From: Onthophagus taurus
Taxonomy: Eukaryota; Arthropoda; Insecta; Coleoptera; Scarabaeidae
Assembly (NCBI RefSeq): GCF_036711975.1
Contig: NC_091972.1
Coordinates: forward strand, 7,755,001 to 7,819,000
Direction: 5' to 3'
Length of the DNA: 64,000 nt
Shown here in pieces: positions 9,586 through 64,000 of this stretch. A program made the translations under genes and the position numbers. The notes under the pieces are model-generated. The model was not told the DNA's origin and did no database searches. It saw nothing but the letters and a program-made list of their open reading frames with translations. How positions within the stretch are numbered: position 1 is the first letter of the stretch; each line of letters opens with the position of its first letter.

Positions 9586-12500
9586 TGTCAAACTTAAAAA
9601 ATTACTTGAAATATTAAAAAAGTGACATTTATGCTGTTAATAAAGTGCTGTTTTATTTAATGCCATTTTGGGTTTTTTTACCAATACTTACCTACCTCTC
9701 TATAAAACGCGTGTGCTCATGAGATTTGTTTTGGAAATGGTTAGAAAATTTTTATTCAGCGTGAGTACACTAATTACAATAATTAGTTTCTGACAGGTAT
9801 GTATGGAATAAGAAGAAAAATGATCGTGTTGATGAGCACAATGATCTAACAAGCTACTATGGTTTGGCTATCCAACATACTCCAAGTCTGTGGAAGATAT
9901 GAACAAAGAAATTTGGAAAGTGTATTAAATGATGTAAAGACGCATCCGTTGGCACACTTACCAGTTTTCACAGTCAAGTCCAATGCTTAATTTACAAGTT
10001 TTAGTGAAATTAAAGCGTATTTGACAAATTTTATCATAAAGAGCAGAATCATAAGATAATTCTTGTATCATTTTGATACATTTAATACCAATTTTGAAGG
10101 TTTTAGATGTGATAGGAGTAAAAATTAGTCAACAAGCAAAAATAAAACGTAAAACGGCAAAAAGATGCGTCGAACAATGTAACAATGTAAAAGTTATAAA
10201 AACTTATATAATATTTCGGTAGTTCGTTTCTATAACAATAAAATCGTGGGTATTGTATTTATCCTCTATACAATTTTAACATTCTGAAATGTCTCGAACC
10301 CCGCTTTTTTATCCGCTTTCCTGTCATAGAATTTATTTAATTGATACATTTAATCCCAATAGAGATGGTTAAATAGGTGTTTTTTCTTCTTTGATATTCA
10401 CAGTAGAGTTGGTGTTATAGTAGTCACTACATTTTGTGATAGTGGCGGAAAAATCTTCTTTTTTGAAACTAAGGCACTCGTAGCGTATGTAGTCCATCGG
10501 ATTTGTGCAGAGTTTCGAATTACTCTGGGCAGCACTCGCTGGTCACTATCTTCCAGTTTTGTGGGTTTGTTGACTGGGGAAATATTCTGACAATCATCTT
10601 CCATTAATGAGTAACATAGGCCATTGTCGATTTTGGGTTCTTGCATACCAATAAAACAAATGTTTTTCATTACACGATATAAAACGAAATCAAGCGTGAT
10701 GGATATTGGTAGATAGTGTGTATTTATACTATTGAAGAAAGTTGATGTTTTGAGACAGTTATTAGTTTTGCAGATTATGTTCCGACCCAAGGCAAACTGG
10801 TTTCATATTATCAAGTTCTCTGGTCACAAATCCCCATAGAAAGTCACAAAATATTCACACGGGACACATTCGTATCCGAGCTTTAACAACTAAGGAAAAA
10901 TGTTTTGACATGCCATCACCCAACCCAACCCAACCTAACCTAACCCAACTATTATCTCCATGTTAAAAAAGTGGATTCTGCTTGAAACATGAAATCTTGA
11001 AACAACATGGAATATGAAATAAATCCATAAAAGAATAAGTGAACCAGACTGAGAATTAAATATAACGCAAGAGAAAACATAGAGAAAACAGATATAGAAC
11101 TAAGTTAAGAAAATTAACAAGTTCAAGTTCAAACAATTAATTTGGATTAAATATTTATAATTTTATAATAACCGTTATAACAATGTGGATCACTTTTCGC
11201 AAATTTGTGTTGTGAGTGAAATAAATCAAACTTTTACCATACATATTAGCTAAAAGTTTAAATATAATAATTAAGAAGATAATTGATTTTACGAAAAGTA
11301 CTAAAGTAATAAAAAAATATTAATAAGTAGTAAATTTATTACAATTCTAACAGGTAGAACAACACTGAATTTACGTTTTACAACCCTCAAGTATCTGGTA
11401 GTAACACACACAAGGCTAAAATTCTTTGTTCATGTAACTAAGATGAAAGTAAAAAGCCCAGGAAATCAAGAAAGGTCATTAGAAGTCACAATATATCAAT
11501 GAAAATTCCAAACAGATCTATATAATTTTTTATAATCTTTATATTTAGTTATTTAAATTTATATTTATAAATTATAAGTAGAAAGACGTTCGTTCTTATT
11601 TTTTGCAGTTTTATTTTTGTTTAAAATCATTGGGACGAATCACAAGTATTAAAAGTGATTTCTCTAATACTTTGATTAAAAAGCTTATATTTTATTTAAT
11701 AATCTGTAGAGATTCCATAAAGATTTTCCAAGAATCGGATTCACCACGACTTTTTAAGTTCTGGCGAAGTGAAGTTTTTTTCAAGCATTGAAAAGTTTCA
11801 TTTATTGATAATCCGTGTCAATTCAAAAGTTTCTTTAGAAATTCTGTTTAGAATCGATTTCGATTTGAAATGAAATAGCAATCCATAAGGATGACAGTTG
11901 CACATCTTTCCAGTTCAATCATTACGGACGTCGTCCCGTTCCACGACAATGACCATGCAGAACCCCATCTCCACCCACTTCCTCTCTTCTACCATCGAGT
12001 CCCCGGCTCCGCCACCATTTCATCCCCCTCCAGACTGGACTTTCCGAATTGTCGAAGTGTTTGCGGTATCGGACTGAATTGCGCGTTTGATGTAGTTAGC
12101 GGACTTAATAGAAACGTAATGATCGACCGGGTTCGAGGACGGTGAGAAAACCTGCTGGTACTACTAATTTTTTAATTCGGTTTTAACCGCGTCTCAAAAC
12201 CAATTTTCCACCCTCATCGACTAGTTTATCTTTTTTTATAAATCGTTTCAGAACCACTCACTTGAGTAAGTGGCTCAAAACGGGTTGGTAGATAAAGTTT
12301 TCCGACCTAAATAAATAACGTTAAATAGGTGATACTAAAACGATTGTAATAAATTAAGTAGATTTTTTGGAAAAACAAATTTTTATAATGATTCTTTTTT
12401 GTGTAAGTTTATTGTTCGTCTCTTTAAAGCGGATGGATCCGAGATAATTCCAAGCCGCGGAATTTGCAATAAAAGCAATCAAAACCACGGGCGTCCGATG

Positions 12501-15500: not shown

Positions 15501-18500
15501 ATAATTAATTTTACGAAGGGGATCGAAAAACAAGTTTAAAAAGTTTTCTTTGTACGTGTAAGAAAATTTTATTACCTAAAAAGTTATTAAAACCGAAACG
15601 ATAATTTATTAAAGTCACATTTCACGACAACAAATAGTCAGACGTAACTGGAACTCAAACTTTCCCGACGACACGACCACATTAGGGTTCTCCATTTGTT
15701 TTGTTTTCCCTCGGTTTCTCTCTGTTCTCTCTCGCGTGTTATGAAGAATATTTGCGAAGTACCCAAATGCGACTTGGTCCCTTTTCTGACCTCACTGCCC
15801 TCACGCGTTCCTGATGCCGCTTCCTCCACATCCTTCTAATCAACTGTCACGTATGACGGCCATATGAACCCAAACCACCAAAACGACGGTGTGCAGTTAT
15901 TAATGAAGGTTAGAAACTCCTTTAATTAATTTCAGACAATTACTAAGCCCCAAATATTAATCAATAACCAACATAACACATTTCTCACGTTTCCAAAAAT
16001 GTTAATTTAAAAAAGAAATAAGCTTACACATTAAAATTAAATCAAAGTCAATTATATAACAGTAGAAACCTCGTTATGGATGGCGTTAGATGACATTGTC
16101 AGAGATAGCTATTTAACAAATTGCGCCTAATTGCGAAAATTAAATTGCACCAGATTTGCGAGCGACACCGTCAAGCGTCGCAACGGTCGATTTATACTGT
16201 GAGATGGAGTTGGAGGCGACGTTTAAAAACACTTAATGAGAGATGAAGCACTTGGAAAATGAAAACGGAAAACTTTTAGACGTCGGTTTCGTTCGCTTTA
16301 CGTTCGTTGGTTAATATCCAGCACGTTGATAAGCGGCATTCAACCGGTACGTAACTTTTAATTCAATCATCGCGACGCCAACGACGCCTATGAAACCGAA
16401 CAAACTGATGAAACCGATGAAACTGTGGCCGCTGAGTTCACGAACGAAGCTGACGTCAACAAAAAGTTTTTGTTAGTAAATGTTATCTTTAAAATGTTCG
16501 AATAAAAAGATGAAATCAAATCAATTTAGGTAATCAATAAGATATAGTTGCTTGGTGACCAAGAATGTAATTATGATATGAAACGTCTAATATGGTAATT
16601 TATGCTCTAGAGAATTCTCTATTACAATATCAAAGGTATTTCATCTACGACTGTACCTACAAGGCTCGGTTAAATTGTAGTCAGAAACCTTAATATATTC
16701 CAAAGTCTATGTTCAATTATTTAGGAATTTGATAACAAATATGTGTCCGAACTGCGATAGTTCACCTGTAATAATATTAATCAAAAACTATAAAAATGTA
16801 ATTATTTTAATTGTCATCACACAGAAATTAGAAAATTCATTTAATTATTCAAGCAATTAAACCAACATAAAATAGTGACCGACGTGTAACAACGTTTACC
16901 TCCCAATGGAACTGATTCAAGAGGGTTGAAACCAAACTAAACCAAAAGGAAAAGAGAAACGACGAACACTCAGGACCAAGCCGGAGGTTTTGGTAGTAGT
17001 AGGAGAAATTCATCCATTCGGTCGGAACTTCGCCAAAGTTCTTGTATTGTGCGGCGGGCAACGGGGGGTTTTAGAAGGGTCGGGTGGGAGTTTAAGGGAG
17101 GGTGCGGTGATGGTGGTGTGGGGTTGGGGTCACCCGTTAGGTTGGGATAAGTGTGCTATGGCCGCTGACATGGGTAAGGGCGGCTCCTGATCTGTATTGA
17201 TCCCAGTCCCAGGATGTAAGATGCATCCCTTACATCCCCCAGTCTGTACGACCGCCCAAAACGTTACCCTTGCAGGAGTAGAGAAATTCGAAATCCACAT
17301 AGAATTACATTTCATCAAACCCACCGAGAGATAAACGTAGATATTCAACGTTTACGAAAGAAATTCAGTTATAAGATGTTGTAATTTCATTAAGCGAGAA
17401 GTCCTTTGTTTGAGAGGGGAGATGACTAGGAGTTTCATTGTTCTTTGCTAAATTAATTTAGGGTTGAAGCGGGGGGTGTTTTAATTGAAATGGAAATTGG
17501 GGAAAATTGTAATTTTGATTGTAAATTTAACATTTTTTAATAATTTTTTTATTTAATTCAATGATATGGAATTAATAAATAATAATGTTAGTCGATAGAG
17601 CCATAAAAATGTAACTGTTAAGTAAGAAACCAAGAAATGATTGACAAGAAAAACTTATGTATAGCTCATTTGAACTAATTAAAACAGTATTACGTATGTT
17701 TTGAAGATCTTAGAAAATGGTCAACAAAGGAGAAAGAAGCGTTTTGCTGTTCCAATGATATGGAAAGAACCGAGTAATCACAGTAAAAATGGTTACTATT
17801 GTGGCGTAATATATTGATTATATTGAAAAATAAGAAAGTACATGAAGACCATAATACAGTCCTTCTACCCCTCAAGTAAACGTTTTGGTAAATGTTATCC
17901 TGATATACTGATGCAGATATTTAGAATAGAAAAGCTGCAAAGCTAGAAAATCTTTGTCGCCTAGAAAGAGGAACTTTCTATGCAAAAACCTGACGAGGTT
18001 TTATGAAGGCTTTAGCCAAAAATGGACATGTATATCTTCTATATCCTCTTCAGATCCCAGGTCCATTTTAATTGACACTTTGTTTTTATACCATTATAAT
18101 GTTAAATTATTGTTCTATGCTTTGGGAAATATATTTTTTTTTAAATTTCAAAAAATTTATTTAAGCTACTTGACCTCTGTGAAACCGTTGGTAAAAATTT
18201 CAAAACATTCTGTCGAAGGGTTTTTTGTGGGATCTGAAGAGGATATTCCAATTTTGAATCCTAAATGCTAATAACTGAGAGAAAGACTGAATATGATACC
18301 CATTCCAGCAGAAATAAAAATTTCTATTGAATTTTAAAAGTTTTGTCATTTCTGCTAATATACTTTCAACATCATCTTGCTAACTTTTCGTTTTAAATCA
18401 TATTCCAACTAATTGGTTTATTAAAAATGTCAAATATAGTCATAACGGTATAATTGCTATGAAATGTGATAAACTTGATAGAGGATGACGCAGGTTATGC

Positions 18501-31205: not shown

Positions 31206-32580
31206 ACAGCAAAAATGTTTTAATCTTCATATTTTTGCCATTCTCAAGAAAAAGTTATTTTTGTGTTAAATTAAAATTAATAAATTTTCAAAACATCTAT
31301 TTGAAACTTTAGAATTCATGAAAATAATATCTTTTATTGTTTGAGAAAATAACGGTCAAATTAACGGTGTTAACCGGTTCTTGCGACCGGACACCGCGGC
31401 AAATCCGGCAGATGTGCACGGAAGCTGGGCCGGTGAGCTTTTTTAATCCGAATCTGGACCAGTCTAACCGCACCGGACTGACCACTGTCCACTGCTGCGT
31501 ACCGCTATACAATGTCAAACGTGCCCAAACACGTAGCACCTAAAAAGCTATAATAAGGGGCTAAAAACCAGTTTTCTCAACCCTCCACATCAATACACAA
31601 ATATACACATCTTTAGAACTCATCTCGACGAGAGCTTTTTTTAAATCCCGTTCCATCCCTCAGTTTATATTTAAAGTTGTTAAGGTGATGATCGTTGTGA
31701 TATAAGAAAATAATTGTAAGTTATAGAAAATAGTTAAAAATTCATTATTACTTGGAATATGGTAGTGATTTGACCTAGATGGAGAATAACTTGTAGACGA
31801 TTAAATATTAAACGTATATGTATATGAAAATTTTAGCAACCCTCCGTGAATATTATAGAAGGCAACCCCCTTCTAAGCTTACATAAAATCAATACTACTC
31901 TCGGAGTGCAAGAAGAACATCTTGCGTCGTTCGTTTGAGGCAGTTATTGCATGCAGACGAATAGGCCACCGGGGAGATTTTGACCACCAACAAATATTAG
32001 AACTGGAAACTCGATTAAATTCTAACATGCACGCTTTATAGCGTTATGGTGTTCAGCTCAAATTAACGGAAGTACACAGACGTTGTTGTTAAACTCCTTT
32101 GATAAAGGAAGTTTCGAATAAGTTACAATGAAACAATAATTAGATGAGGATAAAAAATAAGAATAATTCATTTATTTGTAAGCGGGTTTAGAAAAAATTT
32201 AAAATATTTTATATGTTTAGATAAAAAAACAAAAAAAAAAGATAATTATTGTGGAATTTTGATAAATAAAATTATAACTAAGTAAAACATTTGAACGATT
32301 TATGAAAGATATTTTTAGGAATGAGGAGTTAATATTTGAATAATTAAATATTGGGAATTTATGGACTTTACACGCCATCTTTTGGTTTCAGTAGTTCACT
32401 ATTCCGAAATCGTTACAGGAATTGCTGTATATTCAGAGATCTGCAAGTATTGATTTTGTTAGTTCGGAAGAATTTAAATTCGTTTCAACCTCAAAATGAA
32501 TAATTTCTTTTAATTTTTATCATTTTATATCAAAATTTGCATTATAGCTTAACGTTTAGGAGCTTTCACAGTCGGTGTTA
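31206..32580. other. Gene-free stretch
   Basis: A GC-richer block at about 31360-31520 is open on both strands but shows no recognisable protein. The remainder is AT-rich and featureless. Confidence 0.45.
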
Positions 32581-32584
32581 ATTA

Positions 32585-32950
32585 ACTAAAATTAGAACTA
32601 ATACTAACACTATCACTACAACTAACACTAGACCTAGAACTAGAAACATTCAGGTTTAGCCGTACGTCTCTTAAGACGGCTAAACTTAAAAGTTTCTAGT
32701 TCTAGGTCTAGTGTTAGTTCTAGTTTTAGTTTAATAAAAATATGGAACAATCTAGCGCTGCATAACAATTAAAACTAGAACTAACACTAGACCTAGAACT
32801 AGAAAGTTTCGGGTTTAGCCGTATGTCTCTTAAGACGACTATACCCGAAAGTTTCTAGTTCTAGCTCTAGTGTTAGTTCTAGTTTTAGTTCAATAAAGAT
32901 ATACAACAATCTAACGCGCAATAATAACTAAAACCAGAACTAACATATTT
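32585..32950. repeat. Hairpin satellite, two full units and a stub
   Basis: The same family as 1-735. Hairpin centres (GTTTAGCCGTACG / GTTTAGCCGTATG) are at 32654 and 32813, giving a period of 159 bp. Each hairpin has arms of about 50 bp and a spacer of about 50 bp containing AATAAAAATATGGAACA-like sequence. A third unit is cut short at about 32945. Confidence 0.85.
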
Positions 32951-48654: not shown

Positions 48655-51600
48655 TTACAAACCGGTTAAGATGACGCGAGGGTCTTCAACTGCCGCTTTA
48701 ATCTTTCTAAGGAACATAACAGCCTCACGACCATCTATTAACCTATGATCATAACTCAAAGCGATATACATCATTGGTCTAACCACTACTTGACCTTTCA
48801 CAGCTATTGGACGATCGAATACACCATGCATTCCCAAAATAGCTGATTGAGGCATATTTATAATCGGAGTACTTATTAAAGAACCAAAAACACCGCCGTT
48901 ACTAATCGTAAAAGTACCACCATCCATATCTTCAATTGCTAAAGTACCCTTTTTAGCTTTTTCACCAAGATTAGCAATTTCTTTTTCAATATCAGCATAG
49001 GACATTTTTTCGACATTTCTTAAAACAGGCACGACAAGACCTTTAGGCGTCGCAACAGCAACAGAAATATCAATGTAATCGCGATAAAGAACTTCATTCC
49101 CATCAATAACCGCATTTAAAACCGGTTGATCTTGAAGAGCGTAAGCGGCCGCTTTACAAAACACAGACATAAAACCTAATTTAACGCCGTGCCTTTTAAC
49201 GAAAGCATCTTGATTTGTTTTACGATATTCCATGATGTAACTCATATCGATTTCGTTGAATGTTGTTAACATGGCAGTGGTATTTTGGGCATCTTTTAAT
49301 CTTTGGGCTATCTTCAATCTCATTCTGTTCATCTTTACTCTTTGCTCACTACGTGTTCCAGAAATTAAAGATGTTGGATCTTGAGGTGGAAGCTAAAAGA
49401 ATTAATTTTTAGAATTTTCAATAATTGCTTATAATTGTAATTAAATTTAATATAATGATCATCTAATAATAATAATTGTTTACCTTCACTGTGGCAGCTT
49501 CCAGTGTTTGTGCATGTCGAATTGCAGCAACAGGAATTGAACTAACTGGAGCTGCAGGTCGTGGTGGAGCTGCAGCTGCTCTTGGAGGAGGAGGTGGTGG
49601 TTTACTAGCAGCTGCGGATGGTGGTGGTGGAGGTGGTGGTGGAGGTGCAGTAGGTGGTGGGGCAGCTTTTGGTGATGGAGGTGCTACAGGAGCAGCTTTA
49701 GCAGCCGGAGCAGCACCACCAGCGGGAGCTGCACCAACTTTAATCTTAAAAAGTTTATCTCCAGGTTTTACAGTTGTTCCATCAGGGATCATAATCTCTT
49801 CAAGAACTCCATGAGAGGGGGCGGGAACCGGGATGGCGGTTTTATCGGTTTCGATTTCGCAAACAACATCATCTTCTCGGATTGGATCACCGACTTTTTT
49901 CATATACCTTAGGAAATTAATTTTAAATAAAAATAAGTCATATGATTTAAAGTTATAATTTTATGGAAAAATTCAAGAATCGATGTGAAATGACCAAGAA
50001 AACACGTTCAATATAAAAAAATGTGCGGAAAAGTGTAGAACATACCAAAAATAACATTAAAGTTTCGATGTGACGTCATGTTTTGTGACGTCACAAGCAA
50101 AATTAACCAAATTGTTTATTTTATAGCCACGCACAAAATCAATCTGATAAACTTAACAGTAAAGTTATTTTCACTAAACTAGGTATATTTTCGGATGAAA
50201 TACTCTTGTTTTTCTTAAGGTTTTGATGCATAACGACCTGTTCTACAGTGACCCACATAAGTGATCAGACACTTATGTATTATACATGAAATAAATATTT
50301 ATCTTCACAATTGATTTATTATCGCTTCTTTAGTGTATTTAGTATATTCTTAGAGACATTTCCTTGAATAATTTAGTAAAATTTTCAACAACATGATTGA
50401 GAAGTCTATTGATTATTGGAACAAGGTCATTTTTGTAGATGAAAGTAAGCTCAATATATTTGGAAGTGATGAACGGATAATGGTTAGGCGGAAATGTAAT
50501 GGAGAGATGAAAAAAGAAAATCTAGCGCCAACCGTAAAACATGGTGGTGGTGGAGTCATGGTTTGGGGGTGTATGTCGGCGGCTGGGGTGGGTGATTTGG
50601 TTACAATAGAAGTCATAATGGGCCAATATGGCTATTTGAACATTTTAAAGAACCATTTAAAATCGTCCGCAAATAAAATGGGCCTTCTAAACAACTTCCA
50701 ATTTTATCAAGATAACGATCCGAAACATAAGGTCCATAATGTAAGGCTATGGTTACTTTACAACTGCCCAAAAGTAATCGAAACACCTCCACAATCACCT
50801 GATCTAAACCCAATCGAACATCTTTGGGAAGAATTAAATCGCTGAATAAGGACGCGAACCATATCCTCCAAATCAGAGCTCATTAAAACGTTGAAAGAAG
50901 AATGGGCAAATATATTCTCCACAATTACCAAAAATTTGGTTAACTCGATTCCAAAAAGGTTGACAGCTGTTTTATCGGCCAAGGGAAATCCCACAAAATG
51001 TTAAAATTCGATTAAATAAACTATTATTATAATTATTATTATAAATAAAACCTTTTCGCTGTTTTATTATTAATAAGTATGTTTTCTACATATTTTCTAT
51101 AATATCTATCATACTCTATTTGTCGTTTTTGTTGATTTATTTAATATCTGTTTATTTTTGTGCTATAGCTTAGTGTCCGATCATTTATGTGAGTCACTGT
51201 AGATAGACTGTGTGTCAATAGACTCTGTGTTAATACTAGAACTAACACTAGACCTAAAACTAGAAACATTCGGATTTAGACGCACGTCTCTCAAGACGGC
51301 TAAACCCGAATGAGTCTAGTTCTAGGTCTTGTATTAGTTCTAATGTTAGTTCTAGTTTTAAGCAATAAAAATATGCAACAGTGATATCTTATGCTAACTA
51401 GCGCTACCTACCACTGTCACTAGAACTAACATTAGACCTAGAACGAAAAACATTCAGGTTTAGCCGTCTTAAGCGACGCACAGCTAAACCCGAATGTTTC
51501 TGGTTCTAGATCTAGTGTTAGTTCTACTTTTCGTTCAATAAAAATATACCACAACCTAATGCTAAATAACATTTAAAACTAGAACAAACACCAGACCTAG

Positions 51601-53128
51601 AACTAGAAACATTCGGCTTTGGCCGCACGTCTCTCAAGACGGCTAAACCCCAATGATTCTAGTTCTAGTGTAATATTAGAACAAGTTATTTTCACTAAAC
51701 TAGGTGAGATTACAACGTATATTTTCGGATGAAATACCCTTGATTTTCTAAGGATTTCGATGCATAACAACCTGTCATTAGATAGACTATGTGTCAATAG
51801 ACTCTATTTACCATTTACCTACTCGCGTGGATCTTAATATTAACCTAACAAACCTACCCTCTGCTCCATGCCCAACCCGACATTTGGGAAATTCGCACTA
51901 GTTTAAATGTTAATTAACCTAACTCAAGGTCAAATTTCTACACAACATTCTAAAATAGATCATTAAATTAGGTGTATCCAAATATAACGCATTGTTTTAA
52001 CAAACCCAACCCGGAATTTACAACCCACCCTCTGCTCCATGCCCAACCTGACACTTGGAAAATTCACACTAGTTTAAATATTAATTAAGATAACTCAGAG
52101 TCGAATTTCTACACAAAATTCTGAAATAAATCAGTAAATTAGGTGGATTTGAATGTAATGTGTAAAGAGGAGGGCATCAGGTATAGATTTTAGGTTATCT
52201 TTAGTTCATAGATGGTAAACGACGACATTTTAGTCGTTGTGCGTCGAAAATCTAGAGAAACAACCGTATTTCACCCGAAAATATGCGTTTTAACCAAATG
52301 TGCAGCGAAAATATATGCTTAAATACATGACGTCACAAATAGTGAGGTCACGTCGAAACTTTAAAGTGATTTTTCGGTAAGTTTTACACTTTTCCGCAAT
52401 TTTTTTTATTTATAATGACTTACTTGAGTGATTTTCAGTCGATTAAAAAAAAATTGTCGATTTTTAAGCCACATGATGATTCTTGAATTATACTTAATTT
52501 TATTTATTGAATTAAATTTGATAAAAGTGTTATTAGAAAGTAATGACCTTGATAAAGATAAGTAGGTCAAAATAATTCAAAAGGAATTTGGAATAATACT
52601 CACTTAACATCACCTTCAGCTACGGATTCTGGAAAACCAGGGCAAGCAACAATTTTAACTTCATCCCTTAAAATAGAACTAGTTCTAAAGAATTTAACAC
52701 CTTGGTCATAAATATTCCGATGTTGTCTATAACACCAAAAATAAGAATAATAAAAAATCACCGTATCATAGTAAGCAAATATTTATTTTACACCAACCTC
52801 GTAATTAACTTAGAACTATTTTTCGATATTCTTACTGCATGCTGAATAGATCTTGTCCCAATCTAAAAACAAATAATCAATTTAAAAGTGGCTTATTTTA
52901 AAATAAGAATTTATTCTTATTTCTTTCATCAAATTGCACGTGTTACATAATACAATAAAATTAATGGTAGATACTGCACATAATCGTGCCTATTTTAAAC
53001 TCTAAAAAACGCGCGTTACGTTAACTGGTTACATTTACCTGTAAGGTTTTGGTGTTGATAGATTCGTTCAATGCCCTAATTACCGATCGGGACATATTTC
53101 TGGAAGCCATGGTTAGCATTCCAGCCAT
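48655..53128 (-). CDS. DLST: DLST: dihydrolipoyl succinyltransferase, E2 of 2-oxoglutarate dehydrogenase
   Basis: E2 core of the mitochondrial 2-oxoglutarate dehydrogenase complex; it moves the succinyl group from lipoyl-lysine to CoA in the TCA cycle. Five coding exons join to 479 aa: 53128-53039, 52862-52798, 52726-52604, 49907-49484 and 49392-48655. All junctions are GT-AG with matching phases (0, 2, 2, 0). The N-terminus ([20 protein letters not shown]) is a basic, Ser-rich mitochondrial presequence. The lipoyl domain has DKT at Lys115, within CEIETDKT. A Pro/Ala linker with poly-Pro runs follows. There is no peripheral-subunit-binding domain, as usual for eukaryotic DLST. The catalytic domain starts near MNRMR (255) and holds DHRLIDG with His450 and Asp454. 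Length fits the family. Intron 3 (2696 bp) is filled by transposons. The gene is divergent from UQCC2. Confidence 0.96.
50246..51199 (+). mobile_element. Tc1-like element, internally deleted, 954 bp
   Basis: TIRs CAGTGACCCACATAAGTG and, inverted, CAGTGACTCACATAAATG continue as ATCAGACACT / ATCGGACACT, about 28 bp. TA flanks both sides (50244-50245 and 51200-51201). The length is well short of a full Tc1 (about 1.6 kb) because the region encoding the DNA-binding half is missing. It lies antisense to DLST within intron 3. A repeat copy at about 51687-51800 preserves the unoccupied target. Confidence 0.9.
50393..51004 (+). pseudogene. Tc1 transposase, C-terminal part with a nonsense codon
   Basis: The frame reads [16 protein letters not shown] (first catalytic Asp), [24 protein letters not shown] (second Asp) and [19 protein letters not shown] (third acid). 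A TGA at 50843-50845 follows, and the same frame then continues for 52 more codons to TAA at 51002-51004. The TGA sits where family members usually have Arg, so a single CGA-to-TGA change is likely. The N-terminal HTH domain is missing. The three catalytic acids are intact, so it died recently compared with the other remnants. Confidence 0.85.
51228..51670. repeat. Hairpin satellite in DLST intron 3, three units
   Basis: The same family as 1-735 and 32.6 kb. Hairpin centres are at 51274, 51458 and 51616, with spacings of about 184 and 158 bp. The first spacing is longer because of an extra arm segment (GTTAGTTCTAATGTTAGTTC-like). The array is bounded on both sides by direct copies of the same flank, and it lies inside the larger fold-back element. 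Confidence 0.85.
51853..52168. repeat. 171-bp tandem duplication
   Basis: CTACCCTCTGCTCCATGCCC at 51854 and the matching block starting at 52024 begin two adjacent units. Both continue with CACTAGTTTAAAT, AATTTCTACACAA and AAATTAGGTG. The second unit is slightly truncated. They lie between the hairpin array and the right arm of the fold-back element. Confidence 0.75.
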
Positions 53129-54018: not shown

Positions 54019-54434
54019 ATGGCTGGATCTGGAGCTTATAAAAGAATATTAACCGTTTTGGAACGTTTACCAGTAGATCCAAGCAAAAGTGGAAGGTATT
54101 TGCAAATTTTTTAATATTTAAGTACGCATTGTTATATAACATAACCTTACTTAGAGATTTGGGTCCTTATTTAAAGGAATACGTAAAGAAACAATACAAA
54201 GAAGGTAAATTTCAAGAGCACGTCCAATATTGGGATAGACAATACATAGCGTTAGAAAAGATAGTTGATAACGAAAATTTAAAAAAATATAAACGAGTTT
54301 TGAATTCGTCGGCGACAGGATTAACTGCAGAACAGTGTAATATAGCTTTATCAAATGAGTTTTTGGAGTTGTTGATTGAAGAGGATAAATCGTTTATAAA
54401 TAAGGTGTTTAGTAAAGATAAGAAGAATGAATAA
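54019..54434 (+). CDS. UQCC2: UQCC2: cytochrome bc1 complex assembly factor 2
   Basis: Mitochondrial matrix factor that stabilises newly made cytochrome b during assembly of respiratory complex III. Exons 54019-54095 and 54155-54434 join across a 59-nt GT-AG intron (codon AG|A) to give 118 aa. Conserved blocks are YKRILTVLERLPVDPSKSGR and DLGPYLKEYVKKQY near the N-terminus, and SATGLTAEQCNIALSNEFLE plus IEEDKSFINKVF near the C-terminus. They follow the human protein in order (YRRFL…WPVDETKRGRDLGAYLRQ; SGLSLEEYKLILS). The first ATG of the in-frame exon was chosen; a short out-of-frame ATG lies 7 nt upstream. The stop codon overlaps the METTL15 start. A broken partial copy lies at 62941-63198. 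Confidence 0.93.
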
Positions 54435-56767: not shown

Positions 56768-56807
56768 ATGGAAAACAAATGTTTAATGAGATATTGACAA
56801 ACGTCTA

Positions 56808-57060
56808 AGATCCATTACTACCATCTTTTAGTTAAATTTCTCTTATAGATAAACCCATCTACTAGCCAATCAGAGCGCGTAAAATAGCCGTAACCGGGGT
56901 AATAATCCCTTAGATAGCTTAACCAGAAGATGGTAGTAACAAGCTTAAGGCTCGTTAAGGGATTATTACCCCGGTTACGGCTATTTTACGCGCTCTGATT
57001 GGCTACTAGATGGGTTTATCTATAAGAGAAATTTAACTAAAAGATGGTAGTAATGGACCT
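56808..57060. repeat. Near-perfect hairpin with 105-bp arms
   Basis: The arms 56808-56912 and 56956-57060 are inverted copies differing at about two positions (for example CTAGTAGATG against CTACTAGATG). The 43-nt loop repeats the AGATGGTAGTAAC motif of the outer ends. The arms contain AACCGGGGTAATAATCCCTT and GCCAATCAGAGCGCGTAAAA. The element is non-coding. Such low divergence suggests recent insertion or ongoing arm conversion. Confidence 0.85.
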
Positions 57061-57090
57061 AAGTCTGATTTACGTTATGTTAATAGACAA

Positions 57091-57220
57091 CCTAAGCCTT
57101 GACGTCACAGAGATAAACTAAGTGACATTTTAAATGACATTTTTATGGCGATTTATTTTAGCTACGAAATTGTTTGGAGTCGGTGTAAGCTTCGCCCACC
57201 TCTGTGACGTCAGACTTAGG
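57091..57220. mobile_element. Small MITE of about 130 bp
   Basis: The inverted ends CCTAAGCCTTGACGTCACAG and CCTAAGTCTGACGTCACAGA both hold a TGACGTCA palindrome. The centre is AT-rich. No clear target duplication was found. Confidence 0.55.
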
Positions 57221-57223
57221 CAG

Positions 57224-58350
57224 AAGAAATCCTTAATTTATTTTTTATGCACGGACATTCTGCAAGTTCTTAGTAGAACTTAGTAGTTCTTAGTAGAACT
57301 TGCAGAATGTTTAATGAAAGCTATCCACATTTACCGCCCATGACAAAAGATAAAGTTAGAAGAATAGAAGCAAATTTTTTGCATTTTGGAGGAATTAATC
57401 ACGTGTTAAACCGACCAAAAAATGTAGTGTAGTAGATAATGAAGCAAAAGAGGTGAATACCTTGGCATATTTCGAGGTCAATCCCAACGCCTCAATTCGA
57501 GCTGCCAAAGAAGATCTGGGAATTATTAGGTGTTCAGTGCAGGGAGTCTTGAAGAAACATCAGTTCCACAACTACAAGTTATCGTTAGTTCAAGACATTC
57601 ATCCTCAAGATCTCGACGACCGAGTCAACTTGTGTGAGATGCTATACCTTCGCTGTCAAAAGGATGAAAACTTTTTGAAAAAATTATATCGACGAACGAA
57701 TCTAAGTTTTCGCGCGAAGGTATCTTTAACAATCATATATGGGCTTCCATCAACCCACATGCAATACGAGAAAAAAACTATTAGGTTAGGTTTAGTTTCA
57801 ACGTTTTTTTTGCCTTATGATGGATGGCAGGTTCGCTTAGGTCATTTATGACGGTATTGTAATGACAAAGCGGTACCTGAATTTATTACGTACTGTGGTA
57901 GAAGATTTTCTTGACAACCTGTCTTTGAACTTGAAAAGAAGCTATTATACTGGATGGAGCTCCAGCCCATTGCACCCAGGAACTCTCCTCAATCTTCGAA
58001 GACAGGTGGATAAGGCGGTTACTGTGGAACTGGCGGGCAGATTTCCATATTTGACGACTGTGGACTTCTACCTTTGGGGACGTATAAAACATCAGGTCTA
58101 CCAGACAGCGGTAAACACGACGGAGGAATTGCAAGCACGCGTGCGAGCAGCATTCAACAGTCTCTCTCCTCAAGAAGTACGAAAAGCAATACTTGAGGGT
58201 GTTTTTTCACGTATAACGCACTGCCTGAATGCGAACGGCCACCAATTCGAACATTTATTGTAACTTGTTGTTGAAATGTTGATATTTCGCAAGTTCCACT
58301 ACGAACTTTGTCGCGCTTTCCACATATAAAAAATAAATTAAGAATTTCTT
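57224..58350 (+). mobile_element. mariner-like element, degenerate, about 1.13 kb
   Basis: The 25-bp TIRs AAGAAATCCTTAATTTATTT and, inverted, AAGAAATTCTTAATTTATTT continue as TTTTAT and differ at one base. Just inside the left end lies a palindrome, ACATTCTGCAAGTTCT at 57257 and its reverse complement ending at 57312. The interior encodes a broken transposase. The target duplication is not clear. Confidence 0.75.
57453..58263 (+). pseudogene. mariner-like transposase, frameshifted
   Basis: The first frame reads LAYFEVNPNASIRAAKEDLG and GVLKKHQFHNYKLSLVQDIH, then DDRVNLCEMLYLRCQKDENF. This is the HTH and linker of the insect mariner family whose members read …NPHASTRQ…VLKKHKFHPYKLQLVQEL…. After decayed sequence, a second frame reads GRFPYLTTVDFYLWGRIKHQ (the SPDLTPLDFYLWG block, with the catalytic Asp of SPD replaced by Tyr). 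It continues with QARVRAAFNSLSPQEVRKAI and ends at TAA 58263. The middle with the first and second catalytic acids is scrambled. Confidence 0.75.
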
Positions 58351-59147
58351 GATTTGTGTAAATATTTTTTTCGTTATTGTTATTGATTTTAACTCTTTTT
58401 AGTACTAATATTAAGGCATCTAACAGATAATTATTAGCTCACATGCATCAGGTGACGTAAACAAGTGAGATTTTGACAAGAACTCATTGACCACGCTTAT
58501 TTTCGATGGCACACTAGGTTAATATTGATAACATGTATGCATTTTTCAAAAAACCCTTATATCTCCCAAACTAGTAATGTTAGCTATAGGACATATGGGG
58601 GACATATAAAGATGTAAAATGAAACGACTAAGTAATAAAATATGGGGGTTACCAAACGATCTACACAGCCGTTCTCGGCACCAAAACATACTCCATCATG
58701 TTGGTTAAGTATATTCTGAATCCTAAGTTGATATCCCAAAAATCGAGAAATTTTGAGTAAATGTCTGCTATATAGAACAGATTTGCTTAGAAAAAATCGA
58801 ATAACTCGAGAAAGTTGGAATCAAATTGCAAAAAGTAAAGTTATTCATAAACCATGAAAATAGACAAATCCAAATATATAAAAATATACAGATGTTTCAT
58901 TAAAAAAAATAAGTAGGTGGCGACTTCCGGTATAACAGGAAGTGCTAGAAATCTGAAAATATTTTAGTCAAACAGAACGTTATTGATTATACTTAAATCT
59001 GAATTCTCAAATTTTTATTTTGGCCAGAACCCCATAGACGTCTAATGGACAGTCTCATTGAGATACCTTGTGTAGTGAAAACACAATAAGAATCAAGTTT
59101 TATGTTTTTATTTCTTATAAAATTATGTCAACATTTTTCTATAATCT
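58351..59147. other. Intergenic DNA and 3' UTR
   Basis: No gene was seen. The block around 58507-58528, read on the minus strand, matches 56476-56500 and may be the right end of an older element enclosing this TE cluster. AATAAA at about 59110 on the minus strand is a plausible polyadenylation signal for the ligase gene. Confidence 0.45.
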
Positions 59148-61399
59148 TTAAAAAAGTCCTTCAATTTCTCCAGTTTCTGTATTTAAATCAATATCGAAAA
59201 TGGAAGGTCTAGTTGGTAATCCTGGCATTCTTGTAATCTAAAAGAAAAGTATTAATTTATTTAAAAAATTAAATTAAATTAAAAAGAACCTCTCCGCAAA
59301 TTGGAATAATAAATCCAGCACCAACAGAAATTGAAATATCATTAATTTTTAAAGTAAAATCAGTTGGTGCGCCTTTAATTGTTGGATCACCAGTTAATGA
59401 TAGAGGCGTCTTTGCCATACAAATTGGAAGTTTATCAAAACCCTATAAAAAAATAAACATAGAAAGATGTCTTAATGTATTTACTTTATAAATCAATTTT
59501 TACTTGTTCAGTGTATTTCTTAATAGATTGCATAACTTTTTCAGAATACTCGACATTTCCAGCTCCATACATTTCTTTAGCTATAGCGAAAATTTTTTCA
59601 TCAATTCCCATATTAACATCATACAAAAATTTAAATGAATTTTGAGTTTCACAAGCTTTTATAACGGCATCTGCTAAACCAACAGCTCCAGCTCCTCCTT
59701 CAGCCCAATGATTACAAACAACAGCATCAAAAGCTCCATTTTTAACAGCAGCCTCTTTAACTAATTCAAGTTCGCTATTGGTATCAGTAGCATGTTTATT
59801 TATCGCTACAATTACAGGAACACCATGTTTATTTCCATTATTAATATGTTTAATTAAATTTTGTAATCCATTCTTTAAGAGAGGAATATTTTCTTGAGTA
59901 TACTCCGGTTTTAATGGAGCTCCTGGAGTCACTGCAGGTCCACCTCCGTGCATTTTTAAAGCACGAATAGTTGCGACTAAAACAACTGAGTTTGGGATTA
60001 AACCAGAAGCTCTGCATTTGATGTTAAAAAACTTTTCCATTCCGATATCGGAACCAAGTCCAGCTTCTGTGACAACGTAACCTTTTTCACCAACTAATTT
60101 CAAAGCGATTTGATCCGCGATTATTGAAGAACAACCATGGGCTATATCCGCAAACGGTCCGGCATGAACTAAAACCGGCGTTCCTTCTAAAGTTTGCATT
60201 AATGTTGGATCAATAGCATCTTTCATTAAAACACTTAAAGCTCCGGTCATTGCTAAATCATCAGCAGTAACTGGCTTATTATTTTTATCAAAAGCAACAA
60301 CCATTTTACTAAGACGTGTATAAAAGTCAGTTAAATCTTTTGATAACGCTAAAATGGCCATTATTTCACTAGCTCCTGTAATCATAAAACTAGATTCCCG
60401 AGTAAGATTCTTTTCAGTTGGCGATTGTCCAATTGTAATTTTTCTTAAAAAACGATCGTTTATGTCAATAACGCGATTCCAAACGATGTTATTTGTATCG
60501 ATGTTTAAACGGGCGAATTTCACTTTTTCTTCATCTGTTAAATCATTTGGATCGGTTTTTTTAATACCCAACCTTTCAAGTCTTCTCAATTGAATATTAC
60601 TAAATTTGCGAACCCCTTTTATTGTCGGAACAAGCCTATTATATAAATCTTGATCTTTTTGTGTTGCTTCATGGAAGATTCTAGCATCCATTTGAGCAGC
60701 CAATAAATTATGAGCTGTTGCAACGGCGTGAGTATCTCCTGTTAGATGAAGATTGAAATCTTCCATTGGAATTACTTGGGAATAGCCACCACCAGTAGCA
60801 CCACCTAAATTTGTTTTCAAATTTAATTATTTCTATATAATTTAATAAGTTAGGCAACCAATCAAACTCACCTTTAATGCCAAATGTAGACCCTTGACAC
60901 GGTTGTCTTAAACAAACAATAGAATTTTTATTTTTATGCGCCCCTAAAGCTTGAACCAACCCAATAGATGTAGTACTTTTTCCTTCACCAAGTGGTGTTG
61001 GAGTAATTCCAGCACAAACAATGTATTTTCCATCTTTTTGCGTTTCCAATCGTTTTAAAACGGATGCAAAAGAAATTTTTGCTTTTTTATTGCCGTAAAG
61101 TGAATATTCATTGGGATATAAACCAAGTTCTTCAGCCAACTGATTAATGTTTTTTGGTTCTTGTTTGACAGCTATTTTAATAACTCTTGGAACAGGTCTT
61201 TTTAAATGTAACGAACTCTCACGAAACTTGAAAGAAGGTTTTATAAGTCTTGTTGTGGCTTTTGGAGCATTTGAGACTGTGTTTTTCATTAATATTGGTA
61301 CTACAGCCTCAGGAAGTGGTGTTATCTGTGAAGCTACTTGTTGAGCTTCTGTATATGTTTTGTCGCGAACAAGATGTTGCTCTGATTTCTTAGTTGTAT
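59148..61399 (-). CDS. Formate-tetrahydrofolate ligase domain gene (C1-THF synthase type), N-terminus unresolved
   Basis: Makes 10-formyl-THF from formate, ATP and THF in one-carbon metabolism. The coding exons are 61399-60872, 60804-59504, 59442-59290 and 59237-59148. Their junctions are GT-AG with matching phases (1, 0, 0). Landmarks: [14 protein letters not shown] (ATP loop), [50 protein letters not shown] and the C-terminal [14 protein letters not shown]. Upstream, in the first visible exon, VASQITPLP…ILMKNTV matches the tail of the dehydrogenase/cyclohydrolase domain, but its PGGVGPMT signature is gone. That exon enters in phase 1 without an ATG before 61289. Translation may come from the THAP exon (61800-62052) or start at Met 61289. 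The basic stretch after that Met looks like a mitochondrial presequence. Related to MTHFD1, MTHFD1L and fly pug. Confidence 0.9.
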
Positions 61400-61799
61400 C
61401 TAAAAAGTTATTTCAAAAAATAATTTAAAAACAATATTATGAACTAATTGAAAATTATTTAAATATTATTTTATTACCATTTTAACACTAAAGGAACACA
61501 AAAATTTCTTCCAGAAAGTCTTTTTTTGTATATTATCAACTCTTTGGAGCAGATAATCATGGAATATAAGGTATTCTAACAAAAATAGATTAATTATTGA
61601 TTTACAAGTTGTATCAGTGGAGTGGAAACTTAAAAAGTGAGGGACAAAGTGACAGGAAACCAAGAACAAAATAAACAGGTAGAGATATATTGTTCTTTGG
61701 TGGAAAATTCCTTTTTATAGTTGTTTTAACAAACAATTCTTATACATAATACATATAATATGCAAAAAATGGATAGAAAAAAATCTATTTTATGCTTAC

Positions 61800-62052
61800 T
61801 TGGTAAATTTAATGTAGGTATTACTCCCTTCAATAATTTACTATTGCGTCCAACATGTTCTTTAGCAAAATGTTTTCCACAAATACGAAAATTTCTATAA
61901 ATTCTCATATCATCATATTCCCACAATTCTTCCCGTCCACTTTGTTCAATCCACCTTTGAAATATTTGTGGATATAGTTTTGGGTTTGGAAATCGGTGAA
62001 ATGTTCCATACCGTTCTCTGCATTCACCCATAGCACAATTCCTACCAGCCAT
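61800..62052 (-). CDS. THAP zinc-finger exon (N-terminal)
   Basis: DNA-binding domain of 84 codons with the C2CH pattern: Cys6, Cys11, Cys58 and His61 (CGKH). It also has the family's FPNP, the conserved Trp at 34 and a closing GVIPTLNLP (family form: AVPTLF-P). The exon has a good start context (AAAATGG) directly behind an acceptor at 62056-62057. A 79-nt intron (62056-62134, donor GTAAGT) separates it from a 5' UTR exon that starts near 62250. It ends at 61800 with donor GTAAGC in phase 1, compatible with the ligase exon beginning at 61399. It could instead belong to a separate THAP gene, or end by intron read-through after 23 extra codons. The domain is certain; the joining is inference. 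Confidence 0.8.
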
Positions 62053-62135
62053 TTTCTATTGAAAGAGATACACATGTTTAAGTCATTTTTAAGTACATTT
62101 ATAAAAAAGAAAACTCCTAATTAAATGTACTTACC

Positions 62136-62300
62136 ACAAATAAAACTTCGTAAAATAAAGTCTTTAATAAAACAGATGGCAACAAATTCCTTAAAACACC
62201 GAAAACTCATCAAATAAATCGTTCTAAAACATCAAGTTACACCAACAACGTAGAGAAACCAAATCATAACGAAATTCGATTCAAAACATGACAAAACATC
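62136..62300 (-). other. Probable 5' UTR exon of the THAP transcript
   Basis: Its 3' limit is a strong donor, TTTGTG followed by GTAAGTACATT (exon end 62135). It splices to 62055, three bases before the ATG. The 5' limit is not defined by sequence. Confidence 0.5.
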
Positions 62301-62940
62301 GGGCTGTCATTGTCATTAAAACAAAATTTTCTTAAATCACCGCTAAAGTAGGTAACGATTATAACTAACATTCGCGCCATCTAACACCATAGCTTTATAC
62401 TAATTAAGTGCCAAGGATATGTTGAACTGTCAGTTTGAAAACGAGCATCTTTAACCTATACAAATAGATAACTATCTTCTAAAGGTATTAAAACACATTA
62501 ACATAAGAATTTAATTAGTAAAATAGGAAAACCATGTCCTAAATAGACTTTAGGTAGCCAAAATTTCAGTGGGAAGTCGAAAATGTGCTTAAATGGAATA
62601 CAGAATACATCTAAAATTTCACCTTGATTATGTTTGGAGATTGAGGAAAGAGCCATAAAGTTCATACTTTAAATAATTTGTTTATATTTCAAGTAGATAA
62701 AGGTTCATCTTTCTGTATGAAAAGAATGATAAGAAAATGATTAATTAAAAATAATATTGGTTCTGAATCACTGTGAGGAATTTATAAAAATGTTAATAGA
62801 CCATTAAAGGGAATTCAACAATAATTGATTTATAGATTAACTGACGGAAGACTCAGATTCTTTCAGTAACTACGACTTCTAAGGAAAACATTTATTTGAA
62901 ATCCATTTAGATCATACTTATAAAAAGTCTAAAAATTCAG
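62301..62940. other. Intergenic AT-rich DNA
   Basis: No gene was seen. The segment near 62423 (GTTGAACTGTCAGTTTGAAA) resembles the UQCC2 upstream region. It may be a displaced part of the same duplication that made the downstream pseudogene. Confidence 0.4.
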
Positions 62941-63198
62941 TTTAAAAGAATATTAAATGTTTTGAAATGTTTGCCAGTAGATCCAAGCAAAAGTGGAAGG
63001 TATTTGCAAATTTTATAATATCTAAGTATGCATTGTTATAAAACTTGACTTTACTTAGACATTTGGGATCTTATTTAAAGGAATATGTAAAGAAACAATA
63101 CAAAGAAGGTAAATTTCAAGAGCAAGTCCAATATTGGGATAGACAATACATAACGTTAGAAAAGATAGTTGATAACAAAAATTTAAAGAAATATAAAC
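62941..63198 (+). pseudogene. Partial UQCC2 copy with retained intron
   Basis: Nearly collinear with 54038-54295: the last part of exon 1, the whole 59-nt intron with its GT and AG, and the first half of exon 2. The match is roughly 90% by eye. Changes include Asp to His in the DLG motif. The frame is still open as far as it goes, but the start codon and C-terminal half are missing. The retained intron shows a DNA-level duplication, not a retrocopy. The copy ends exactly where the non-LTR remnant begins. Confidence 0.9.
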
Positions 63199-63990
63199 TT
63201 CTTCTTCTCCTGATCCCTATGCCTGTTGGCGTCAGATAAATCTGTTCCTATTCCTCCTAATTCCTTTATATCTGCTAGAGTCTTCCCTCTCTTCTTCCCA
63301 ACTTCTGCCATTCTTTCCTCCCACTTCTTCCTATGTGTTCTTTTTCTTATCCTTATTCTTTGCTTCAAATACCTTTTTTACTGTTGTGTTATTTTTCATG
63401 CTAATTATGTGGGCGTGCCAGTTTAGTTGCTTTCTCTCTATTTTGCTGATTATCTCGTCTTGATCTACCCCTAGTCATATTTCCTCATTCCTTATTTTCT
63501 CCACTATTTTCAGTAAAAATTACATTTCCATTGCTGTAATCTTTCCTGCTTGTTTATCTTGGAGTGTCCATGATTCACTGGCATATGTTAATATTGGGAC
63601 TGCCACCGAATTGTACACTTTCAATTCTATCTTTGTATCTATCTCCTTCTTATATGTTGTGTGTTTTCTTTATTCTTACATTTATGTCTAAATCTATCCT
63701 TCAATCTTGTGATATTATGCTGCCCAAGTACGCATATGATGATACTTCTACCTTTTGTTCAATTTCTTCTGTCCATATTTCAACCAACTTCCTTGCCTTT
63801 TTATGGTTCGTTTTTATAGTAAATTATCTATTTTTACTGGTTCCACACTTTTATAACCTATTACTTACTGTTTGATATTTATTTGTTCTAGTTCTAGTCT
63901 AACTAGGCTATAGGCTTGTTTTATTCCCTTGCTCATTTCAAAAGTGTTTGATGTCTCTTCATTTGTACTATGCTCTTGATTTCCTGTACC
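63199..63990 (-). mobile_element. Non-LTR retrotransposon, decayed 3' part of the RT ORF
   Basis: On the minus strand, fragments in shifting frames follow the C-terminal half of insect non-LTR endonuclease-RT proteins. They read FEMSKGIKQAYSL (family form: KGVKQGCSLSP), then YNSVAVPILTYASESWTL-like sequence, DEIISKIERKQLNWHAHI and RKKWEERMAEVGKKRGKTLA. The element ends in a short GAAGAAGAAG tail at 63199, inside the duplicated UQCC2 exon. Stops and frameshifts are frequent. The 5' part would lie beyond the window. The clade (RTE-, Jockey- or CR1-like) is not determined. Confidence 0.75.
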
Positions 63991-64000
63991 GATTTTCAAT

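Follow-up and report, generated by a model that had tools for sequence, protein, structure and literature searches.

The locus analysed here lies on the minus strand near one end of a 64,000-nt stretch of the Onthophagus taurus genome (contig NC_091972.1, positions 7,755,001 to 7,819,000; hereafter the window), in which an exon encoding a THAP zinc finger is followed by the exons of a formate-tetrahydrofolate (THF) ligase (Table 1). The coordinates that an initial annotation had given for the THAP exon, its 5'UTR intron and the ligase exon at 61399 all hold when the minus strand is re-read from 57000 to 64000, and so does its count of 36 open codons ahead of the first Met of the 61399 exon. 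The THAP exon ends in phase 1 (A|GTAAGC), and the exon at 61399, whose acceptor is preceded by TTTTTAG, opens with a 2-nt partial codon. The two exons thus join in frame, as had been claimed, and the joined exons form an open reading frame of 774 codons plus stop across five coding exons. In this frame, the formate-THF ligase family PF01268 covers residues 158-774 (model positions 4-556 of 556, E 3e-243), and the THAP exon matches the whole model of PF05485 (1-87 of 87, E 1.3e-11, 45.6 bits against a cutoff of 23.9). The zinc ligands C6, C11, C58 and H61 are present, as read by CX4C...CX2H, which we take to be the motif of the domain. The predicted peptide spanning the THAP/ligase junction is GVIPTLNLPNTTK.

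Table 1 Features of the THAP-ligase locus (window coordinates).
Feature	Position	Strand	Basis or remark
Candidate one-sided 8-bp target site copy CAGTTCAA	62422..62429	-	putative
5' terminus of P-superfamily element (CATATCCTTGGCACTTA)	62405..62421	-	one of 37 genome matches of the terminus pattern
P-superfamily left-end remnant: promoter region, 5'UTR exon, UTR intron, THAP exon, donor, start of next intron	61741..62421	-	
5'UTR intron (GTAAGT...AATAG), inherited from the transposon	62056..62134	-	donor GTAAGTACATTT common to window and families A and B
THAP coding exon	61800..62052	-	84 codons + 1 nt, phase-1 donor A|GTAAGC
Hybrid intron	61400..61799	-	transposon-like to ~61741; C1-THF synthase intron from ~61641
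TATA-like GATAATATACAAAAAAAGAC, possible rival promoter	61518..61537	-	identical in parent intron; putative function
Linker (decayed dehydrogenase/cyclohydrolase end)	61200..61399	-	12-nt in-frame deletion
First Met of ligase exon, where a ligase-only protein could start	61287..61289	-	sequence reading
Ligase domain, first part, sharing its exon with the linker	60872..61199	-	exon joining and Pfam
Ligase domain, second of four exons	59504..60804	-	exon joining and Pfam
Ligase domain, third of four exons	59290..59442	-	exon joining and Pfam
Ligase domain, last coding exon with TAA	59148..59237	-	exon joining
AATAAA, possible poly(A) signal	59107..59112	-	sequence reading

Throughout the 290.8-Mb genome, PF01268 gave six exon matches in two genes, namely the copy in the window and a gene about 5.2 kb upstream, beyond the window end, which is referred to as the parent and for the reading of which 18 kb beyond the window end were fetched. 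The segment 59115-61641 is a copy of 64296-66948 (coordinates continued past the window end), with 93.6% identity over 2388 nt and 89% over 131 nt, introns included. The parent has five further upstream coding exons and reads through 937 codons without a stop; PF00763 (1-115 of 115) and PF02882 (2-159 of 160) are complete in its first 330 residues. Genome-wide, these two families match the parent, an MTHFD2-like gene on C5 and, in the case of PF02882, two further places below the cutoff, and the window copy is absent from the matches. Compared with a trifunctional C1-THF synthase, the window copy has the ligase and lacks the dehydrogenase/cyclohydrolase domain. The upstream coding exon that had been guessed from the open codons ahead of the Met therefore exists in the parent and is missing from the copy, whose cyclohydrolase exons were left behind because the copied segment starts inside the parent's phase-1 intron. 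As this is the intron ahead of the parental exon that matches 61399, the phase of the ligase acceptor is inherited, which bears on the earlier caution that phase agreement occurs one time in three by chance.

The stretch ahead of the Met still resembles the end of the lost domain. On its own it matches positions 112-156 of 160 of PF02882 with an E of 0.0011, at 18.7 bits against a cutoff of 27, and all 17 PDB rows at E ≤10 are chains of the FolD/MTHFD type (best E 0.03); these matches are weak because the tail has decayed. The tail stretch comprises 21 residues in the parent and 17 in the window copy, four codons having been lost in frame, and this 12-nt deletion is the only exon indel relative to the parent, with neither a stop nor a frameshift. 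From this we conclude that the window ligase is a 5'-truncated duplicate of the intact neighbouring C1-THF synthase and that the codons ahead of its Met are the decayed tail of the cyclohydrolase domain. A retrocopy and a collapsed haplotype were ruled out, given that one contig holds both copies, the introns are retained and the divergence reaches 17.5%; an orthologue of MTHFD1L was likewise ruled out, since the window copy is a local duplicate of its neighbour. Hidden upstream cyclohydrolase exons within the window were also considered and rejected, as a Pfam scan of the three minus-strand frames of 61400-64000 (stops written as X) found only THAP, and the exons in question lie beyond the window end.

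The divergence between the two copies is uneven: the intron piece differs at 11.3%, the linker at 17.5% and the first ligase part at 10.1%, followed by 4.5% and 2.0% for the two halves of the next exon and by 0.7% and 1.1% for the last two exons. Gene conversion at the 3' end is the simplest reading of this gradient, and dating the duplication is unsafe because the 3' exons are nearly identical to those of the parent and such conversion is likely.

The upstream half of the locus has a different source. The THAP exon protein gave 93 genome matches at E ≤0.1; seven further matches retrieved alongside that of the window, L091-L097, have blocks of 0.7-1.5 kb in common, 85.7-98.3% identical, and hence belong to a repeat family. 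Twenty places that were fetched fall into family A (1.9-2.0 kb; L098-L100 and L112-L116), family B (L101-L111; about 1.54 kb, with copies 96-100% alike) and the distant L117. A genome search with a 790-nt stretch yielded 53 matches including itself, with up to 83% identity over 411 query positions. Both families start with CATACCCCTGGCACTTA and end with TATG, and 8-bp target duplications flank nine of nine family B and two of two family A copies printed with both ends, whereas the window has one side only; no partner of CAGTTCAA was found beside any 3' terminus. The terminus pattern CATAYCCYTGGCACTTA, which was written so as to admit the form in the window, matches 37 times in the genome and its reversed control never. 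Compared with the family B element in L102, the left-end remnant is 76% identical over 62403-62304 and 78% identical over 62248-61741. We conclude that a DNA transposon of the P superfamily is the source of this half, its left end comprising the 5'UTR exon and intron and the THAP exon; the 5'UTR intron is the transposon's own, because the window holds the left end of the element with UTR exon, intron and THAP exon.

The remainder of the element was not recovered. Beside the remnant, no catalytic part of a P transposase was found by the Pfam scan of 61400-64000, by comparing whole elements with 1-82000 (continued coordinates) or by the search for right ends in 50000-72000, where those of families A and B are not recognisable. 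Beyond the left end, the whole-element comparison returned weak pieces of 61-69% identity at 1782-1897, 11112-11307, 16770-16848 and 64252-64381, which we take for chance in AT-rich DNA. The two halves of the locus meet within 61741-61641, where the transposon homology stops at the former position and the parent-intron homology begins at the latter; a genome search with this interval matched nothing else at E 0.001, but the same search also missed the adjacent family B match. A PDB search with the THAP exon gave a single row (RNA-binding protein 12, E 1.7). The genome as a whole has 122 matches to the P transposase helix-turn-helix family PF12017 at E ≤0.01, several of which lie in open frames exceeding 600 codons.

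The initial annotation had proposed that a DNA-binding domain was captured. At the DNA level this is borne out, with the left end of a P-superfamily element as the source and a truncated C1-THF synthase duplicate as the host piece. Its alternative, a promoter region shared by two genes, has lost ground, since Pfam finds only THAP in the three minus-strand frames of 61400-64000 and no transposase body was found next to the exon.

All 11 family B loci have a broken THAP frame and lack the start codon as well as cysteines 6 and 58, whereas the window exon retains start codon, cysteines and frame; because the family B copies are 96-100% alike and yet broken, they were probably moved by another transposase. 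The family A element L100, whose kinship rests on 50-57% identity, has a reading frame that lacks one zinc ligand and has no Pfam match at E 0.01. The THAP exon of L117 is 38% identical, and about 0.9 kb further on a long frame matches PF21787 (E 5e-33) and PF21788 (E 3e-11), as well as PF12017 at 20.9 bits, under the cutoff of 23; by our own reading, the two would join in phase 1. A phase-1 donor is found in four of the ten distinct family A copies that match the search pattern (L115 and L116 did not match), two of them at the exact position of the window (CCAG|GTATGT) and two 3 nt further. The donor phase of the transposon is thus not uniform, since the other six copies have lost one G at the donor, which shifts the phase, and family B has no intact donor at that place. 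We infer phase 1 to be the ancestral state of the transposon, because L117 agrees.

Several other features were recorded around the locus. A UQCC2-like gene, whose conceptual protein from two exons matches PF20180 (E 3.4e-15), lies at 54028-54434 on the plus strand, and a partial copy of it (256 nt, 92%, intron included) is located upstream of the THAP exon at 62943-63198 on the plus strand; a 13-nt match between the flank of the transposon end and the UQCC2 promoter was judged too short for use. Fragments of mariner-like transposases, named by reading their frames, are present at 57399-58263 and 50372-50845 (both plus strand), and an inverted repeat of 108 nt, 97% complementary and with arms 43 nt apart, occupies 56805-57063. 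Scattered repeats with CTAGTTCTAG-like units around a hairpin-like core were seen at 1-750, 32580-32945 and 51230-51700 of the window and at about 9400-9960 of L088.

Next to its origin, the evolution of the ligase half was assessed by comparison with the parent. The ligase part shows a dN of 0.022 and a dS of 0.121 (ratio 0.18), while the linker carries 30 non-silent and six silent differences, proportions that differ from those of the ligase (Fisher p 2e-5). Around the internal Met, dN/dS is 1.3 before and 2.3 just after it. For a neutral window branch to which half of the 46.5 silent changes are assigned, we reckon with about 81 non-silent changes, against 31.5 observed over the two branches combined (Poisson p 2e-10; p 5e-4 if 54 are expected). 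In simulations of neutral evolution, 690 codons stayed free of stops with a chance of 0.0006, or 0.03 if the parent took half the changes. For the stretch ahead of the Met alone the chance was 0.42, and its open frame was consequently rejected as proof of coding.

The ligase copy has changed at positions that are otherwise conserved. At the 27 amino-acid differences, the state of the parent is the commoner one in bacteria in 18 cases and that of the window in seven, with two ties (p 0.04), in a bacterial set that is unbalanced because it comprises the best 80 of 574 relatives, mostly Chloroflexota. In the same best 80 of 574, 263 ligase columns are at least 97.5% uniform, from which the window copy deviates in 35 and the parent in 27; nine of the 263 are changed privately in the window copy and one in the parent. 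Among those private to the window copy are F359L, which lies in the EAGFG motif, and P104S, ahead of TFGIKGG (numbering within the 623-residue ligase part). Catalysis by the window copy may be impaired, as these nine near-uniform columns are changed in the window copy only and just one in the parent only. Taken together, the ligase copy looks constrained but loosened. In viral contigs, the ligase has one relative at 44%, and no relatives of the THAP exon were found there.

For the THAP half, changes were assigned to the window and family B branches with family A as outgroup (15 of 19 A and B loci in the consensus; six sites ambiguous, gapped sites skipped). The window branch has 13 changes at 239 exon sites versus 35 at 331 flanking non-coding sites, and branch B has 24 at 239 versus 22 at 331; the contrast between the branches has a Fisher p of 0.02, or of 0.046 once the poorly aligned bases following the donor are left out. 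Of the 13 exon changes in the window, seven are silent (one-sided p 0.009), as are six of the 24 in branch B, and none of the 13 falls on codon position 2 (p 0.005) against 10 of 24 in branch B (p 0.007), while the direct contrast of non-silent to silent changes, 6:7 in the window versus 18:6 in B, is not significant (Fisher p 0.15). Some of the changes on the window branch may be older than the insertion, from a time as a living transposon, and for both the ligase ratio of 0.18 and the silent bias of the THAP exon (p 0.009), the time after the fusion is not separable from the time before it.

These patterns bear on how the layout is to be explained. As the main alternative, the ligase copy could be expressed alone from a promoter in the copied intron piece, starting at the Met at 61289, with the THAP exon as a bystander. 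This would fit the lack of constraint ahead of that Met and the TATA-like 20-mer at 61537-61518, which is the same in both copies, and by our own reading the parent intron holds an ATG-bearing mini-exon that would be spliced in phase 1 to the same ligase exon. However, the coding part of this mini-exon is deleted in the window copy, where it would read ATG|GTAATA in another phase, so that the explanation needs the internal Met; the residues right after this Met are as unconstrained as the preceding ones, and the THAP exon retains its frame and ligands. We therefore regard it as unlikely. In the parent itself, the mini-exon ATGTCTGAAAATACCGAAAATG|GTAATA, which fits the ligase exon in phase 1, and the TATA-like box lie at about 4670-4860 of L088 (minus strand), and a second promoter in this intron, yielding a ligase-only protein from the intact gene, is possible.

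It seems quite unlikely that the duplicate is dying, with an accidental fusion layout of which neither half now makes a selected product. The freely evolving linker, the nine near-uniform columns changed in the window copy only and the 18 to 7 excess of the parent's state (two ties, p 0.04) would all be in line with decay. A dN/dS of 0.18 in the ligase, 31.5 non-silent changes in place of about 81 expected under neutrality (p 2e-10, or 5e-4 for 54) and the lack of any stop or frameshift, with a 12-nt in-frame deletion as the sole exon indel, argue against it. We consider it highly improbable that the THAP exon ends elsewhere, either spliced to a lost transposase or read into the intron as a short THAP-only product, for which the frame would indeed continue 24 codons beyond the 84 of the exon to a stop, giving 108 residues from the Met; THAP is the sole Pfam match in the three minus-strand frames of 61400-64000, the right ends of A and B are not recognisable in 50000-72000, and the whole elements found only the left end and the weak pieces of 61-69% identity in 1-82000.

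The most likely reading is that a ligase-only paralogue is now headed by a DNA-binding exon and a promoter captured from a transposase gene. About 2.6 kb of the C1-THF synthase, from the interior of the phase-1 intron to just past the stop codon, was duplicated near the parent, and the truncated duplicate now sits immediately behind a P-superfamily left end. The joining of two introns created the layout of a working gene, consisting of transposon promoter region, THAP exon, hybrid intron and ligase exons. Transcription would start from the transposon promoter and splicing would connect 61800 to 61399, so that translation would give a 774-residue THAP-linker-ligase protein of about 85 kDa, which would presumably bind DNA and might have some ligase activity. 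That the two halves derive from a transposon left end and a truncated C1-THF synthase duplicate we hold to be close to certain, and that they yield one spliced chimeric product appears probable. A more doubtful proposal is that the product might be nuclear and act at host sites or at the ends of P elements as a THAP-guided formate-THF ligase or as a folate or ATP sensor derived from the ligase, supplying 10-formyl-THF on chromatin or repressing the P elements related to its own source; the sensor variant is entertained because ligase residues are altered. MTHFD1 reportedly interacts with BRD4, as Sdelci is said to have shown in 2019, and a role on chromatin is therefore not far-fetched.

Comparable combinations are known from other systems. 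CTBP-1 of C. elegans, which Nicholas is said to have described in 2008, is reportedly a CtBP with a THAP domain. THAP4 is described as combining THAP with nitrobindin (PMC6275384). Both resemble the protein predicted here in joining THAP to an enzyme-like host domain and differ in the partner domain. Among the open-access matches listed, no THAP-ligase protein was found, and 'THAP domain' and 'tetrahydrofolate synthase' co-occurred only as separate table rows. MTHFD1L is presented as a duplicate of MTHFD1 without dehydrogenase/cyclohydrolase activity that arose in vertebrates and kept a divergent N-terminal region (PMC11064299); the window copy is likewise a ligase-domain duplicate without dehydrogenase/cyclohydrolase function, but here the domain was cut off and THAP stands in its place. 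P-superfamily elements are characterised by an N-terminal THAP domain and 8-bp target duplications (PMC7776569, PMC1562414). The elements described here share the N-terminal THAP, the 8-bp duplications in sister copies and small non-autonomous relatives, whereas the window copy is a left end only, with transposase body and right end gone. Host-transposase fusion genes include SETMAR, CSB-PGBD3 and KRABINER (Cosby et al. 2021 as cited in PMC12062965), and their host domains are stated to tend towards gene regulation (PMC12062965). As in these genes, the DNA-binding part of a transposase is in frame with a host domain via splice sites, a transposon coding exon and a host exon forming one frame. 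In contrast to them, the order in the putative fusion is reversed, with the transposon supplying the 5' end (promoter region and first exons) in front and a metabolic enzyme as the host part behind.

The locus may thus represent gene birth through exon shuffling, with a DNA transposon and a truncated duplicate as the partners, and the source family, the source gene and the breakpoint interval are still visible. If expressed, it would extend the capture of transposase exons to a central metabolic enzyme, with a promoter from the transposon, and would make it possible to test whether folate chemistry can be directed to DNA.
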